Shown here: positions 3,928 to 45,868 of the stretch, in pieces
How positions within the stretch are numbered: the stretch's first letter is position 1
Layout of the letters: each line of letters starts with the position of its first letter
From: Acidobacteria bacterium RIFCSPLOWO2_12_FULL_68_19
GTDB taxonomy: Bacteria; Acidobacteriota; Vicinamibacteria; Vicinamibacterales; UBA2999
DNA length: 53,448 bases
Assembly (NCBI GenBank): GCA_001767525.1
Contig: MELF01000002.1
Location: 1 to 53,448 of the forward strand
Reading direction: 5' to 3'
Program-made: the position numbers and the translations under genes
The notes under the pieces: model-generated
What the model was told of the DNA's origin: nothing
Database searches by the model: none
The model's input: the letters and a program-made list of their open reading frames with translations, nothing else

Positions 3928-4131
3928 ATGCTACGATTGACTCCGCGACGTCGAGCCGTCCTCGCCGCTGCGCTCCGCGAGGTCGCAGCCCTTATGGTCG
4001 GTGCCCTCGTGCTTGGCTGGTACATCGGCGACGCACCAGGCTCGGTGGCAGTGCCCCTCGTGGGTGTCGCAGCGTGGTTGGTACTGGTGGGCTTCGCAGT
4101 GGCGGTGACCAATGGAAAGTCCTCACGCTAG
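3928..4131 (+). CDS. Small two-helix membrane protein
   Basis: A 67-residue protein with a basic N terminus (MLRLTPRRR) and two hydrophobic stretches, EVAALMVGALVLGWYIG and VAVPLVGVAAWLVLVGFAVAV. It looks like a helical hairpin in the inner membrane. ATG 3928 has GGGGAAG about 7 nt upstream; in-frame ATGs at 3883 and 3913 are less well placed. The 3' end overlaps the next small gene by 20 nt. I do not recognise the family. Confidence 0.55.
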   Translation: MLRLTPRRRAVLAAALREVAALMVGALVLGWYIGDAPGSVAVPLVGVAAWLVLVGFAVAVTNGKSSR

Positions 4132-41094: not shown

Positions 41095-42924
41095 CTAGCT
41101 GGCGCACTCGCCGTCCATGACGACGGTTTCGAAGGTGTGCGTTTCGCCAAGATCGACCCAGTCATCCGCGGTCGTCTCGTCCTGGCGCAGCTCCGCCAGA
41201 TCCTTGAGCGCGTCGGTCGCGATGGCGGCCGGGATGCGCCGGAAGAACGCGCCGAGCGACTCGCCCGGCGTGCGCCGCTCCTGGTAGAGCGTCAGCAATC
41301 GATCGATGGCGGTCGTGAGCCGTCGGACGGGAATCTTGGAGACGACTCGTCCGAAGCTCGCGCCCGAATCGGTGCTCCCGCCGCCCACCAGCACGAAATA
41401 CTGCGGCAGTGCGCGGTCGCCCACTTTGCGGACGCTCCCCTGGAAGCCGATTGCCGCGATGTGGTGCTGGCCGCAGCCGTTCGGACAGCCGCTGATCTTG
41501 ATGTCGCCCTCATGGACGAGCGCGACGAACTCGGGGTGCCGGTCGAGATACTCCGTCAGGACTCGTCCAAGACCGCGCGACTGCGTCACGGCCAGGCGGC
41601 AGCTTTCCGCGCCGGGGCAGCTCACGACGTCCGCCACCGTATTCGCGCCGGCGGCGCCAAGGCCGGCCGCCTGCAGACGATGGTACAACTCCTGGAGCGA
41701 GCCGACCTTCACCCAGCGAAACAGCACGTTCTGCCCGATCGTGAGGCGAGCGGTGCCGTCGCCGTACGCCTCGGCGAGGTCGGCGAGCACCTCCATTTGC
41801 CCGGCGGTCATGTCGCCGAGGGGCAGTCGCACCGTCACGTGCACGAACCCCGCCTGCCGCTGCAGTCCAACGTTGGTATGCATCCAGGTGAGGTACGCAT
41901 CCGAGAAGGTCTGGAGCATGACGCTGTCCGGCATGACGCCCGGCCCGTGCGCCTTGACGCTCGACGCCTTGCGCTTCACGTCCTCGACCGCCGGCGCCGG
42001 CACCGGCGTCCAGTCGGGCGCCTCCTCGACCTCCGCCGCCGCGGCGTCGGAGCTGAAGGGCACGCCCCCCTCGGCGCGGACCTCGGCGAGCGCCCGCTCG
42101 AACTCGGCGCGCCACCGCTCCCATCCGAGCTGGCGGATCATGAACTTCATCCGGTTGCGCTGCCGGTGCTCGTAATCGCCAAACCGGTGGTACACGCGCA
42201 CGATGGCCTCGGCGACCTCGAGCATCTCGTCCGCCGGCAGGAAGTCGTAGACCAGCCAGCCGGAGGTCGGCAGGATGGACGTGCTCCCCCCGATCGTGAC
42301 CCGGAATCCGCGCTGCCCGTCCACGATACGGGCGTACCAGCCGATGTCGTTGATCGACGCCAGCGCGTGGTCGCGCGGGCACCCTTCGAAGGCCACCTTG
42401 AACTTGCGGGGGAGCGAACCCGAGAGCGGATGGCGCAGGAAATAACGCGTGAGCGCCTCGGCGTAGGGGATGACGTCGAAGATCTCGTCGTGCGCGATGC
42501 CGGCGTACGGGCAGGCCGTGACGTTGCGAACCGAGTTGCCGCACGCCTCGCGGGTGGTGAGCCCCGTATCGGCCAGCTCGCGCATGGCGCGCTCGGCGTC
42601 CTGGAGCAGGACGAAATGGAACTGCATGTTCTGGCGCGTGGTGATGTGCCCGAAACCGCGGGAGTACCGTGCCGCCGTGCGGCCGAGTGCGCGCAACTGG
42701 TCGCCGGTGACGATCCCCTGCGGGATCTTGATCCGCAGCATCTGGACGCCGTCCTGGCGCTGCCCGTAGGTGCCGCGCAGCAGCCGGAATCGCCGCCAGT
42801 CGTTGGCCGACACCTCCCCGCGCTCGTAGCGCCCCAGCATGTCGACGAACTCGTCGATGTCACGCTCGTCGGCGAACGACAGTCGCCCGCGCCCGAATGC
42901 CTGTACGTTATCGATGACGGCCAT
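41095..42924 (-). CDS. Siroheme-dependent nitrite/sulfite reductase, ferredoxin type
   Basis: A 609-residue protein with two ferredoxin-like/4Fe-4S siroheme halves. The N-terminal half has RIKIPQGIVTGDQLRALG, TTRQNMQFH and RNVTACPYAG. The C-terminal half carries the cluster cysteines Cys436, Cys442 (CPGAESC), Cys480 and Cys484 (CPNGC), almost the numbering of E. coli CysI. It reduces sulfite to sulfide or nitrite to ammonia using ferredoxin. Its operon makes siroheme and opens with a cysteine-rich leader, so the assimilatory sulfite role is favoured. It overlaps the SUMT gene by 17 nt. Confidence 0.9.
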   Translation of the reverse strand: MAVIDNVQAFGRGRLSFADERDIDEFVDMLGRYERGEVSANDWRRFRLLRGTYGQRQDGVQMLRIKIPQGIVTGDQLRALGRTAARYSRGFGHITTRQNMQFHFVLLQDAERAMRELADTGLTTREACGNSVRNVTACPYAGIAHDEIFDVIPYAEALTRYFLRHPLSGSLPRKFKVAFEGCPRDHALASINDIGWYARIVDGQRGFRVTIGGSTSILPTSGWLVYDFLPADEMLEVAEAIVRVYHRFGDYEHRQRNRMKFMIRQLGWERWRAEFERALAEVRAEGGVPFSSDAAAAEVEEAPDWTPVPAPAVEDVKRKASSVKAHGPGVMPDSVMLQTFSDAYLTWMHTNVGLQRQAGFVHVTVRLPLGDMTAGQMEVLADLAEAYGDGTARLTIGQNVLFRWVKVGSLQELYHRLQAAGLGAAGANTVADVVSCPGAESCRLAVTQSRGLGRVLTEYLDRHPEFVALVHEGDIKISGCPNGCGQHHIAAIGFQGSVRKVGDRALPQYFVLVGGGSTDSGASFGRVVSKIPVRRLTTAIDRLLTLYQERRTPGESLGAFFRRIPAAIATDALKDLAELRQDETTADDWVDLGETHTFETVVMDGECAS

Positions 42925-43789
42925 AGCTCACCTCGTTACCGGCTCCCCCCGATCCGACGGTCGCTCCAAGCAGATCTCGAACGCGCACCACCTCGCCGAC
43001 CACCAGCACACCGGCTACCCCGTCCGGCGGCTCGACCGCCGGCAACCGCGCCAGCGGTCCGCTCCACGTCCACTCGCTGGCGGTCGATGCCGCGCAGACG
43101 ACCGCCGCTGGCGTATCGGGCCTCCATCCGGCCGCGACCAGCCGTGCGGACAGCTCCGCCCGGGCCGACAGCCCCATCAGCACCACGAGCGAGGCGCTGT
43201 TCGGCGCCACCGAACGGATGCCGGAGTCGAACGCCTCCAGGGCATGTCCGGAAACGACGAGAAACGAGGACGCGATTCCGCGATGCGTCACCGGAATGCC
43301 CGCCAGCGCGGGAGCCGCGGTGGCCGAGCTGACGCCGGGCACCACCTCGAAGGCGATGCCGGCCATCGCCAGCGCCAGCGCTTCCTCGGCGCCGCGACCG
43401 AAGACGAACGGGTCGCCCCCCTTCAGCCGAACGACGCGCTTGCCCGCCTGGGCGGCGCGAATCATCACCCGGTTGATCGTGTCCTGGCGCACGCTGCGGT
43501 GGCCGGCGCGCTTGCCCACGCAGAAGCACTGAGCCGTGGTCACCGCGCGAAGCGCCCGCACATCGACCAAGGCATCGTAGAGGACGAGGTCGGCTTCTTC
43601 GAGCCGTCGAACGGCGCGCAAGGTCCACAACTCGGGATCGCCCGGCCCGGCGCCGACGAGCGAGACGCGAGCTCCGCGCTCGAGATCCGCGACCCGGGAT
43701 CCGGGATCCGACACGTATGGGGTTCGGTTTCCGGTCCCGCCGGATCCCGGATCCCGCATCCCGCATCCCGGTCTACTTTCGCTTCTCAT
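42908..43789 (-). CDS. cobA: Uroporphyrinogen-III C-methyltransferase (SUMT)
   Basis: The conserved enzyme begins at about residue 38 (RVSLVGAGPGDPELWTLRAVR) and holds the SUMT motifs: ADLVLYDALVD, VRLKGGDPFVFGRGAEE, FEVVPGVSSATAAPALAGIPVTHRG and VVLMGL. It makes precorrin-2, the siroheme precursor. The nominal start is ATG 43789, inside the end of the upstream gene; GTG 43714 is an alternative. Everything before the motif (DPGSGGTGNRT ... SDPGSRVADLERG) is coded by GGATCCC heptamers and is foreign to the family. Confidence 0.88.
   Translation of the reverse strand: MRSESRPGCGMRDPGSGGTGNRTPYVSDPGSRVADLERGARVSLVGAGPGDPELWTLRAVRRLEEADLVLYDALVDVRALRAVTTAQCFCVGKRAGHRSVRQDTINRVMIRAAQAGKRVVRLKGGDPFVFGRGAEEALALAMAGIAFEVVPGVSSATAAPALAGIPVTHRGIASSFLVVSGHALEAFDSGIRSVAPNSASLVVLMGLSARAELSARLVAAGWRPDTPAAVVCAASTASEWTWSGPLARLPAVEPPDGVAGVLVVGEVVRVRDLLGATVGSGGAGNEVSYGRHR
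43689..43769. repeat. GGATCCC-family heptamer arrays in the SUMT 5' end
   Basis: Two arrays, 43689-43711 (CGACCCG, GGATCCG, GGATCCG) and 43741-43769 (CGGATCC, CGGATCC, CGCATCC, CGCATCC), lie around a non-repeated stretch. They fill the space between the previous gene's stop and the SUMT core. Same family as 33053-33087 and 52571-52598. Confidence 0.8.
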
Positions 43790-44327
43790 ACAGTTCGATC
43801 AGCGTCTCCAGCAGCTGCGGCCGGCGCTCCTCCATCGGCACGCGCTCGGCCTTCCAGCGGCGGCGTACCGTGTCGGCCGCCGACAACCACTCGCCGAGGT
43901 CCGCCGGGAGCCACCCTTCGAGCGCCTCGCGCAGCAGGCCCGTCAGGGCCGGCGCGCGCCCGTCGGTGGAGATCGCTACGATCACTCCGTTCCGCCGGAC
44001 GACTCCGCCCAGGTACGCCGTGGCGTGCGCCGGATCGTCCACCGCGTTGACGAAGAGCTGCCGCGCCTCGGCGACCGCGAGCACCTGCCTGTTCACCTCT
44101 GTCGGCGCCGCCGCCACGACCCACCAGGCCCCGTCGAGATCCGCCGGTTCGAAGGGGCGACGCACCACCCTGACGTTCTGCCGAGCGATCTCCGGAACCA
44201 CCTCAGGCGACACGACCGTGACGTCGGCGCCAGCCTCGACGAGCGCATCGAGCTTCGACGCGGCTACAGGTCCGCCGCCGACGACCACCACCCGGCGCGA
44301 CCGGAGGTCCAGAAAGACTGGGAACAT
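43773..44327 (-). CDS. Precorrin-2 dehydrogenase / sirohydrochlorin ferrochelatase (Met8/CysG-N type)
   Basis: A 184-residue NAD-dependent enzyme. It has the Rossmann motif VVVVGGGPVAASKLDAL (13-29), VTVVSPE, WWVVAAAPTEVNRQV and the C-terminal dimerisation part (AISTDGRAPALTGLLREALEGWLP). It oxidises precorrin-2 and inserts iron to make siroheme, supplying the reductase encoded two genes downstream. ATG 44327 comes directly after the U-tract of an intrinsic terminator. No Shine-Dalgarno is adjacent; the nearest GGAG lies about 40 nt upstream, before the hairpin. The gene is the first enzyme of the attenuator-controlled operon. Confidence 0.9.
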   Translation of the reverse strand: MFPVFLDLRSRRVVVVGGGPVAASKLDALVEAGADVTVVSPEVVPEIARQNVRVVRRPFEPADLDGAWWVVAAAPTEVNRQVLAVAEARQLFVNAVDDPAHATAYLGGVVRRNGVIVAISTDGRAPALTGLLREALEGWLPADLGEWLSAADTVRRRWKAERVPMEERRPQLLETLIELYEKRK

Positions 44328-44361
44328 AAAAAAAGCCCGGGATTTTAAGCTCCCGGGCTTT
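44328..44361 (-). terminator. Attenuator terminator hairpin upstream of the siroheme/sulfite reductase operon
   Basis: Minus strand: perfect 11-bp stem AAAGCCCGGGA (44361-44351) / TCCCGGGCTTT (44342-44332), loop GCTTAAAA, then a run of seven T (44334-44328) ending on the ATG at 44327. The placement before the first gene, not after a gene, marks it as conditional. Its 5' arm can instead pair with TCCCGGCGCT (44424-44415) inside the leader frame. Confidence 0.88.
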
Positions 44362-44386
44362 CGGTCTCCTTCGTGCTGTGGGTTGG

Positions 44387-44479
44387 TTACAGGTGACCCG
44401 CACGGCGGAGCGAGAGCGCCGGGACCCTGGCGGTCCCCCTGCAACAACACGCGCACTCACACCCGCAGAGATGCAACAC
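44387..44479 (-). CDS. Cysteine-rich leader peptide (30 codons), putative attenuator
   Basis: GTG 44479 opens MLHLCGCECACCCRGT, then ARVPALSLRRAGHL and TAA at 44387. Six of the nine residues 5-13 are Cys (codons TGC, TGT, TGC, TGT, TGT, TGC). The GTG falls about 10 nt after a -10 box, so the transcript would be leaderless or have a ~3-nt leader. Downstream, GGGACC/GGTCCC (44437-44432 with 44426-44421) can form a first hairpin just after the Cys codons. The overlapping TCCCGGCGCT can act as anti-terminator. This is the classical logic of amino-acid attenuation; leaderless polycysteine leaders with similar roles are known in mycobacteria. Confidence 0.75.
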   Translation of the reverse strand: MLHLCGCECACCCRGTARVPALSLRRAGHL

Positions 44480-44489
44480 GATGCGCGGA

Positions 44490-44519
44490 ATTTTACACGG
44501 AACAGGCGCAGGGGGGCAA
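44490..44519 (-). promoter_or_regulatory. Promoter of the Cys leader and siroheme/sulfite reductase operon
   Basis: Minus strand: -35 TTGCCC (44519-44514), 18-nt spacer, -10 TAAAAT (44495-44490). Expected start near A44482, three bases before the GTG of the leader peptide. The gap from here to the thrC stop (44520-44605) is C/G-rich and shows no clear terminator. Confidence 0.7.
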
Positions 44520-44605: not shown

Positions 44606-45868
44606 TCACCCCCTCCCCCCTGCGGTGACTGCCTGCTGGGCGGCCTGCGCCCCGAGCGCCCGCTCGAAGTCGGCGATCCCGCGTCCGATCCGGGTGGGAG
44701 CCGCAACGCGGTCGAACATCACGTCGGCGGTCTTGTACCCGTTGCCGGTGATGCAGATGACCACCGAATCGTTCGGCTTGATCACCCCGCGCCGCACGAG
44801 GGTGCGAGTGACGGCAAGCGTCGTCCCGCCTGCCGGCTCCGTGAAGATGCCCTCGGTCCGCGCGAGCAACTGCACTGCGTCCAGAATCTCGTCGTCGGTG
44901 GCCATGGCGCCGGTGGCGCCGGTCTCCTTGACGACGCGCACCACCTGAAACCCGTCGGCGGGATTGCCAATCGCCAGCGACTTGGCGATCGTGTCGGGCT
45001 TGACCGGGTCCGGGAATTCGAGTCCGTCCTCGAGCGCCTTGATGACGGGGGCCGACCCGGCCGGCTGCGCCGCGTGAATCTTCGGCAGCGTGCCGCTCAC
45101 CAGTCCGACATCGCGCAGCTCACGGAACGCCTTGTGGATCCGCGGCAGCAGCGTCCCGCCCGCAACCGGCGAAACGACGTGGTCCGGGAAGCGCCATCCG
45201 AGCTGCTCGGCAATCTCGAAGCCCATCGTCTTGGCGCCCTCGGCGTAGTAGGCGCGCAGGTTGATGTTGGCGAATCCCCATCCGTAGCGATCCACGATCT
45301 GCGTGCACAGCCGGTTCACGTCGTCGTAGTTGCCCTCGACGGCTACGACGTGGGGCTCGTAGATCGCCGCGCCAAGCACCTTGGCCGGCTCCAGATCGTG
45401 GGGAATGAAGACGTAGCACGCCAGGCCGAGACGCGCGGCGTGGGCGGCGACGCTGCCCGCCAGATTGCCGGTCGAGGCGCAGCCGAAGACCTGGAACCCG
45501 AGCTCCACGGCGCGCGAGGCCGCGACCGACACGACGCGGTCCTTGTACGAGAACGTCGGATGGTTGACCGAGTCGTCCTTGAGGTACAGCTCGGACAACC
45601 CCAGCTCCCTGGCCAGCCGCGTGGCACGCACGAGCGGCGTGAACCCGGAGTGAAAACCGGTGCGGGGCTCCTCGACGGGGAGCAGTTCGAGATAGCGCCA
45701 GAGCGAGCGCGGCCGCGATTCGATCACGCTGCGGCTGATGACGCCGCGGATGGCCGCGTAGTCGTACGACACTTCGAGCGGACCGAGGCACTCGGTGCAG
45801 ACCCACGAGGGTCCGGCCGGATACGTCGCGCCGCAGAGATGGCACGTCAATCCCGCGACGAATCTCAT
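44606..45868 (-). CDS. thrC: Threonine synthase
   Basis: A 420-residue PLP enzyme that turns O-phosphohomoserine into threonine. It has an N-terminal zinc ribbon (Cys9, Cys12, Cys24, Cys27), PLP lysine Lys109 in FSYKDRV, the phosphate-binding ASTGNLAGS loop and the TGNGYKTADV end. This is the shorter, archaeal/plant-like threonine synthase class, which in plants is SAM-activated. It is last in hom-thrB-thrC; the ATG overlaps the thrB stop by 4 nt. Confidence 0.93.
   Translation of the reverse strand: MRFVAGLTCHLCGATYPAGPSWVCTECLGPLEVSYDYAAIRGVISRSVIESRPRSLWRYLELLPVEEPRTGFHSGFTPLVRATRLARELGLSELYLKDDSVNHPTFSYKDRVVSVAASRAVELGFQVFGCASTGNLAGSVAAHAARLGLACYVFIPHDLEPAKVLGAAIYEPHVVAVEGNYDDVNRLCTQIVDRYGWGFANINLRAYYAEGAKTMGFEIAEQLGWRFPDHVVSPVAGGTLLPRIHKAFRELRDVGLVSGTLPKIHAAQPAGSAPVIKALEDGLEFPDPVKPDTIAKSLAIGNPADGFQVVRVVKETGATGAMATDDEILDAVQLLARTEGIFTEPAGGTTLAVTRTLVRRGVIKPNDSVVICITGNGYKTADVMFDRVAAPTRIGRGIADFERALGAQAAQQAVTAGGRG

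Follow-up and report, generated by a model that had tools for sequence, protein, structure and literature searches.

Predicted leaderless cysteine attenuators with intrinsic terminators precede sulfur-assimilation operons in Acidobacteriota

Introduction

Attenuators of the classical trp, his and leu type combine a leader peptide with RNA arms that pair as 1:2, 2:3 and 3:4. A leaderless representative is trpL of Sinorhizobium meliloti where, according to the sections consulted, the attenuator RNA starts with the trpL ATG (PMC7298713). With regard to cysteine, leaderless poly-Cys short open reading frames of Mycobacterium smegmatis are described as acting on translation (Canestrari et al., 2020, Mol Microbiol 114:93, as summarized in PMC9031893, PMC9094748, and PMC13236596). 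Cysteine leader peptides without obvious terminators are reported for Mycobacterium and other Actinobacteria in the excerpted account of PMC1262725, where a comparison detected no conserved terminator hairpins in Mycobacterium. In the Rhodobacterales, the uORFC-8-2 motif has been predicted, in the portion of the source available, to be a ribosome-mediated cysteine attenuator with an intrinsic terminator that is located exclusively before cysS (PMC8632094). The mechanism is thus textbook, cysteine attenuators have been predicted earlier in Actinobacteria and Rhodobacterales and, as uORFC-8-2 is among them, cysteine-sensing transcription attenuation as such is not new. The Acidobacteriota constitute a large, poorly studied phylum whose members are hard to grow, and a literature search beyond whose reach most subscription papers lay returned no description of such an element in this phylum.

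Here, we analyze a stretch of 53,448 nucleotides (the window) on contig MELF01000002.1 of Acidobacteria bacterium RIFCSPLOWO2_12_FULL_68_19 (GCA_001767525.1). An earlier note on this DNA, made from the sequence alone, had read the region before a siroheme/sulfite reductase operon as a cysteine-responsive attenuator. This reading gains support from the recurrence of the element in relatives, from covariation and from the presence of the same leader before other cysteine-pathway operons; the response itself we infer. The element in the window is very probably a leaderless, cysteine-responsive, ribosome-mediated transcription attenuator, a member of a family governing a regulon for sulfur assimilation in Acidobacteriota. 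Sequence comparison, detailed below, documents the parts and how they are conserved, covariation between the alternative pairs, and the target genes.

Like the mycobacterial poly-Cys frames, as far as these are portrayed in the citing papers, the leaders are short frames (here predicted to be leaderless) with contiguous Cys codons before cysteine-related operons, and ribosome speed would be set by cysteine; unlike those frames, for which the citing papers give translation attenuation, they possess a terminator and a covarying antiterminator. Tandem Cys codons, an intrinsic terminator and predicted ribosome-mediated attenuation are shared with uORFC-8-2 as excerpted (PMC8632094). The same text describes two Cys codons with UGC dominant, a conserved AUG start and a rarely found third pairing for that motif (PMC8632094), whereas the acidobacterial leaders have last Cys runs of up to seven codons, are rich in TGT, precede many biosynthetic and transport targets and belong to another phylum. 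The location before cysS does not recur either: the target in the window is a siroheme gene, and for 101 of 103 leaders a different first gene was assigned, on the basis of a reference set that itself lacks cysS. With the trp/his/leu-type attenuators the leaders have in common a leader peptide and the arms 2:3 and 3:4, to which a putative 1:2 pairing is added; from these and, going by the sections consulted, from S. meliloti trpL they differ in the amino acid sensed, the gene set and the phylum. What is new is the phylum, the use across a regulon, the predicted leaderless design in combination with an intrinsic terminator, and the support that sequence comparison gives to the alternative pairings.

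Results and Discussion

Architecture of the Leader Element

The whole element, comprising promoter, Cys frame, pairings and terminator, is located on the minus strand of the window (Table 1). Its promoter is the only sigma-70-like site between 44000 and 44700, where shuffled sequences let 0.1 be expected, and the GTG of the leader frame lies 10 nt downstream of the -10 box. Promoter, GTG, 30-codon frame and the Cys cluster CGCECACCC at residues 5-13, with its six Cys codons in frame, were all found as the earlier note had described them. A second, weaker terminator-like site is present upstream (44591-44575).

Table 1. Features of the leader element and neighboring genes in the window.
Feature	Position	Strand	Details
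Threonine synthase, upstream of leader	44606-45868	-	
Sigma-70-like promoter TTGCCC-18-TAAAAT	44490..44519	-	TTGCCC 44519-44514, TAAAAT 44495-44490
Leader ORF MLHLCGCECACCCRGTARVPALSLRRAGHL	44387..44479	-	30 codons, GTG 44479-44477, stop TAA 44389-44387; predicted leaderless or nearly so
Sensor codons	44441..44467	-	Six Cys, residues 5, 7, 9, 11, 12, 13; last three contiguous
Hairpin 1	44421..44437	-	Arm 1 GGGACC 44437-44432 and start of arm 2 GGTCCC 44426-44421
Antiterminator	44352..44423	-	Arm 2 pairs with a stretch including most of the terminator 5' arm
Intrinsic terminator hairpin	44331..44362	-	Arm 3 44362-44351, arm 4 44342-44331, then T to 44328
sirC (name used here), precorrin-2 dehydrogenase / siroheme synthase N-terminal type, first controlled gene	43773..44327	-	184 aa; Pfam NAD_binding_7 1.4e-27
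Uroporphyrinogen-III C-methyltransferase (cobA / cysG C-terminal type)	42908..43789	-	NCBIfam TIGR01469 6.8e-74, over cut-off
Nitrite/sulfite reductase hemoprotein	41095..42924	-	Pfam NIR_SIR 5.7e-53

Hairpin 1, which the note had placed directly after the Cys codons, starts 3 nt past the last of them; its fold (-12.8 kcal/mol) is unexceptional, 77 of 200 shuffles being as good. The antiterminator carries the leader stop codon within its apical loop. An alternative partner for the terminator 5' arm had been proposed and is indeed present, but it extends further than thought, 44423-44352 forming one fold; the piece 44427-44352 reaches -33.8 kcal/mol (3/200 shuffles as good), and the arm 2/arm 3 duplex beats 200 of 200 shuffles. 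The terminator piece (-22.4 kcal/mol; 0/200 shuffles as good) has the hairpin, the seven T and the position originally given, with a stem of 12 pairs instead of 11, and its T tract directly abuts the ATG (44327-44325) of the siroheme gene. Folded alone, the RNA 44328-44484 yields a z of -3.55. A strict terminator pattern run on the window's own genome gave zero matches, missing even the window's copy.

The sirC product scores 22.8 bits against Sirohm_synth_M, slightly under the cut-off of 25. As the reductase hemoprotein stays below the cut-off of every NCBIfam model listed for it, sulfite is assigned as the substrate on the basis of the neighboring genes. Sulfite reductase uses siroheme as its cofactor, and cysteine synthesis draws on sulfide; cysteine is therefore the expected signal. 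Ahead of the siroheme operon, the minus strand between 44606 and 48504 carries threonine synthase as well as homoserine-kinase-like and homoserine-dehydrogenase-like frames, the latter two recognized by eye.

Occurrence of the Leader in Related Genomes

A siroheme protein match was obtained in 24 of 43 genomes of the same family. A matching leader precedes the siroheme gene in the window and six relatives (peptides e.g., MCGCECACCCTGTQVPALSVRRAGSE); in nine other family loci (L008, L009, L011-L017) threonine synthase ends right next to the siroheme gene, and inspection by eye revealed no leader there. Two genomes, G027 and G031, have the leader before the methyltransferase gene instead of the siroheme gene. 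The same probably applies to G017, in which the leader is found behind sirC, 48 bases before the end of the contig.

Covariance model R1, derived from the seven siroheme-operon leaders, matched 28/43 genomes of the family and 78/162 of the order at E<=0.01. Model R2 was built from 63 R1 matches and hence depends on R1. With 14 candidates scored per genome, R2 left 57 of the 193 class genomes without a match at E<=1e-3; 136 had matches at this threshold and 106 at E<=1e-7 (counted by hand). In a phylum-wide draw, R2 matched 122 of 396 genomes at E<=1e-3, and nine genomes outside the class reached 2e-7. Phylum-wide matches between about 1e-6 and 1e-3 were left uncounted because short or partial coordinates suggested bare terminators, those outside the class being judged by coordinates alone. 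In L229 (E 5.3e-7), the inspected match closest to this range, a nine-codon stretch with three Cys is followed by a cysH-like gene, and real members may therefore hide among those judged by coordinates.

We inspected 110 matches, 82 from the R1 searches of family and order (mostly E<=2e-4) and 28 chosen for spread from the R2 searches of class and phylum; they form part of all matches and cover the 106 class genomes at E<=1e-7 in part. At least three Cys in nine codons occur in 105 of them, translation itself being predicted from sequence, a hairpin followed by at least five T in eight nucleotides in 106, and Cys frame as well as terminator in 103. The Cys frame is missing from L053, L111, L113, L226, and L238, the terminator, by rule, from L046 (contig end), L052, L053, and L113; L052 has the Cys frame and, by eye, a terminator. 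The 103 leaders with both parts stem from 90 genomes, 11 of which hold more than one. L055, one of the 103, may be false, since its downstream gene is unassigned and a second count gave only two Cys in 12 codons.

At least five Cys in 12 codons are present in 60 of the 82 model matches vs. 0.12% of 14424 control positions in the same loci, an excess that is partly built in because the model contains Cys codons. A model-free motif scan of both strands of 80 named loci surrounding siroheme genes yielded 37 Cys-rich frames, spread over 36 loci; 36 of the frames lie on the strand of the siroheme gene, and some, e.g., in L114, L115, and L135, are far from that gene and probably represent noise. In these 80 loci R2 had 48 matches at E<=1e-9, every one of them on the gene's strand, many of these contigs also being a source of R2. 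The element is not a chance finding. The earlier note had proposed to compare homologous upstream regions for conserved Cys codons and stem covariation: Cys codons, alternative arms, terminator and promoter-to-start spacing all recur in relatives, and arms 2, 3 and 4 covary.

Seven of the nine genomes outside the class that reach 2e-7 belong to one family of another class, f35. Six of these seven were inspected, and all six leaders (L220, L223, L224, L225, L227, and L228) have six or seven Cys per nine-codon window and precede a cysH-like gene. Terminators and arms are wholly different in sequence from those of the class leaders; by eye, the leader segment GGCAGCGGG can pair with the terminator 5' arm CCCACTGCC with one mismatch. 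Either deep descent or convergence may account for the f35 leaders. Also outside the class, five Cys precede a cysH-like gene in G321, and G406 was rejected as a false positive as it has no Cys frame. A frame reading MCACACCCRP was seen just before a siroheme gene in a record titled Myxococcales (L131:2842), a genome without an R2 match at E<=1e-3. The R2 matches in L169, a record titled Bifidobacterium breve, coincide in their coordinates with those in G062 from the order of the window, and the title of this record is therefore probably wrong.

Covariation of the Alternative Pairings

Arm 3 is common to terminator and antiterminator, so that both of its partners are expected to track its changes. 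Between arms 2 and 3, 52 leaders could be scored (51 of 103 were unscorable), and 44 of these have T-A (24) or C-G (20), the other eight being distributed over T-G (1, a wobble), C-A (2), G-G (4), and A-A (1), all cells consisting of related sequences; by eye, the T-G case (L090) is a pattern artefact. Among the 47 leaders with T or C in arm 2 the link has a Fisher p of 4.6e-10, a value to which we give no weight because relatedness is ignored. T-A and C-G types both occur within each of the families f1, f3, and f14, and the link between arms 2 and 3 therefore does not go back to one inherited change. Between arms 3 and 4, scored in 92 leaders, the pairs are A-T (45), G-C (35), and the wobble G-T (12).

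Structures were counted in 101 leaders, two of the 103 having a distance between Cys codons and stop outside 25-90 nt. The antiterminator duplex of arms 2 and 3 beats 95% of dinucleotide shuffles in 70 of them (mean z -2.27), and 31 have no antiterminator above this level. A total of 53 distinct arm pairs was recorded, including short stems of 3-4 bp that may be due to chance. A perfect hairpin 1 stem of at least 5 bp is found in 61/101 leaders vs. 17.7% of shuffles. Hairpin 1 has no excess stability over shuffles, 6/101 leaders lying within the best 5%, and its stability, considered as support for an attenuator, failed this comparison here as it did in the window.

Transcription Start and Codon Choice

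Promoter scores of at least 7 were obtained for 88 of 103 upstream regions vs. 20 of 103 shuffled ones, leaving 15 leaders without such a score. In the 88, the first in-frame start codon follows the end of the -10 box at a median distance of 9 nt (6-10 nt in 69; the values of 0-2 nt in eight are probably wrong), GTG is the start codon in 57, and a Shine-Dalgarno-like motif is present in nine. Transcription normally begins about 7 nt past the -10 box. The start codon is thus near the usual transcription start, and the leader frame is predicted to be leaderless or nearly so. For three acidobacterial genomes, an average of 13.3% leaderless genes has been estimated in the part of the study consulted (PMC3160421).

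Sensor codons prefer TGT and downstream genes prefer TGC: the ratio TGT:TGC is 335:178 in the sensor windows and 56:450 in downstream coding DNA when frames are set by homology. A previous count of 34:185, obtained with frames chosen by third-position GC, was discarded because that choice favors GC-ending codons.

Proposed Mechanism and Folding Analysis

Start site, ribosome stalling and direction of the response are elements that we infer, the last of them from the architecture and by analogy with known attenuators. RNA polymerase would start at the GTG or no more than a few bases away, with a ribosome trailing behind. When Cys-tRNA is plentiful, the ribosome would pass the Cys codons and arm 2 and reach the stop codon; arm 2 would then be covered or engaged in hairpin 1, arms 3 and 4 would pair, and transcription would stop just before the siroheme gene. 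When Cys-tRNA is short, the ribosome would halt in the Cys run and cover arm 1, arm 2 would pair with arm 3, no terminator would form, and sirC, cobA and the sulfite reductase gene would be transcribed.

We computed the probability that arm 3 is sequestered with the ribosome footprint masked. Averages are 0.75 for a ribosome at the last Cys codon, 0.70 at the first Cys codon of the run, 0.56 at the stop codon and 0.62 without ribosome, vs. 0.54, 0.56, 0.51, and 0.51, respectively, with shuffled tails. Stalling exceeds the stop-codon state by more than 0.2 in 44/101 leaders for the last and in 38/101 for the first Cys codon, and the order is reversed in 3/101. Equilibrium folding accordingly favors the expected direction, with a moderate separation of the stalled from the stop-codon state. 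In the window the values are 0.89 (last Cys), 0.80 (first Cys), 0.32 (stop codon), and 0.74 without ribosome, so that equilibrium folding fails to explain the untranslated state; co-transcriptional folding of hairpin 1 would have to account for it.

Genes Behind the Leaders

Sorted by first gene, the 103 leaders precede sirC (25), cysD (23), cysH (19), a TauE/SafE permease (11), DUF2061 (8, with cysH behind in 8/8), a cysteine synthase type gene (cysK, 4), a YeiH-like exporter (3), cobA (2), the aliphatic sulfonate binding protein SsuA (1), an ATP-grasp protein (3), and a redoxin-domain protein (2), with none assigned in two. The first nine of these classes, i.e., genes for siroheme, sulfate reduction, sulfur transport or cysteine synthesis, stand behind 96/103 leaders, or 89/96 when the seven training leaders are left out. 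Since R1 was built from siroheme leaders only, its remaining targets emerged from the search and had not been put into the model. The reference proteins came from the matches' own downstream genes and served for sorting only, names being taken from domain searches; the cysteine synthase name derives from Pfam PALP for one reference (L107) and additionally leans on known motifs. In L234, one of the cysH cases, only the end of the gene is visible. Similarity of the first gene begins at varying distances behind the terminator (median 40 nt). Calling downstream genes as the longest open reading frames gave wrong frames in this GC-rich DNA and was replaced by a choice based on third-position GC.

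The window's own genome contains three copies of the leader, one in the window and one each on contigs C27 and C6. The C27 copy is followed by TauE and CysD in one frame and then by CysN, the C6 copy by a YeiH-like gene whose NCBIfam score is under the cut-off.

Alternative Explanations

In a translation-level attenuation in the style of the mycobacterial poly-Cys frames, the Cys leader would alter the RNA structure near the beginning of the first gene, and the hairpin would affect translation instead of terminating transcription. In the window, hairpin and T tract touch the sirC ATG, and an AAGGAG precedes the hairpin, which could bring this motif near the ATG. AAGGAG is, however, not conserved in the six aligned relatives, and the idea that the hairpin joins a Shine-Dalgarno sequence to the start codon was dropped for this reason. 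Taken together with the hairpin and T tract retained in 106 of 110 matches and the varying distance to the first gene, as expected of a terminator, this makes a purely translational mode unlikely. The hairpin might also be nothing but the terminator of the threonine synthase gene, which lies upstream on the same strand and whose end, by eye, abuts sirC in the nine family loci mentioned above, the Cys frame then being incidental. Yet promoter and Cys frame separate threonine synthase from the hairpin, and the unit of promoter, leader and terminator also stands before cysD, cysH, TauE, cysK, and other genes, so that we regard this explanation as very improbable.

Equally little probability attaches to the proposal that the frame encodes a functional Cys-rich small protein, e.g., for metal binding, or a precursor peptide. 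Its C-terminal VPALSVRR is conserved within the family, but this part overlaps arm 2; another family shares the Cys run only and has the tail RPTRPTGGSG instead, and the frame stops before the terminator in 101/103 leaders. Known riboswitches and T-boxes are often found before sulfur genes, and one of them might control the operon; the window had no Rfam 15 family at gathering score, however, and in the six relatives, searched with a lax threshold, the sole match above gathering score was a SAM riboswitch about 3.4 kb downstream in L102. The chance that such an element controls the operon is close to negligible.

Possible Extent of the Regulon and Additional Targets

For the transcription attenuator, a wider reading has about an even chance of being right: one leaderless poly-Cys family would be the chief regulator of cysteine supply in a large part of the Acidobacteriota, tying several operons per genome to Cys-tRNA charging with UGU as sensor codon; the arms would have been fully rewritten, with the logic kept, in one family from another class. 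If this is true, an entire biosynthetic regulon would be under attenuation instead of a protein regulator. The predicted attenuator is a system with clear input, clear logic and many targets. The covariance models can be used to annotate the regulon, and genes of unclear role, namely those for the ATP-grasp protein, the redoxin-domain protein and the YeiH-like exporters, are placed under predicted cysteine control. A simple question is raised by the codon choice: is UGU a better starvation sensor than UGC in GC-rich genomes?

The ATP-grasp protein behind the leader in L047, L054, and L096 is weakly similar to RimK-type ligases and is a candidate for the formation of a cysteine-containing small thiol or peptide. 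In L230 and L231 (the latter assigned by similarity) the leader stands before a gene whose product carries an AhpC/TSA-redoxin domain and which may be a target beyond assimilation. On C27 of the window's own genome (L076:588-2186), the TauE/SafE permease and CysD form a single frame of 533 aa, and in a sister genome (L078) they are separate frames; the single frame may be either a natural fusion or an assembly error. In L102, a SAM riboswitch cut by the locus end (3993-4045) is located behind the sulfite reductase gene, about 3.4 kb downstream of the Cys attenuator, so that cysteine- and SAM-sensing RNAs are neighbors in this locus.
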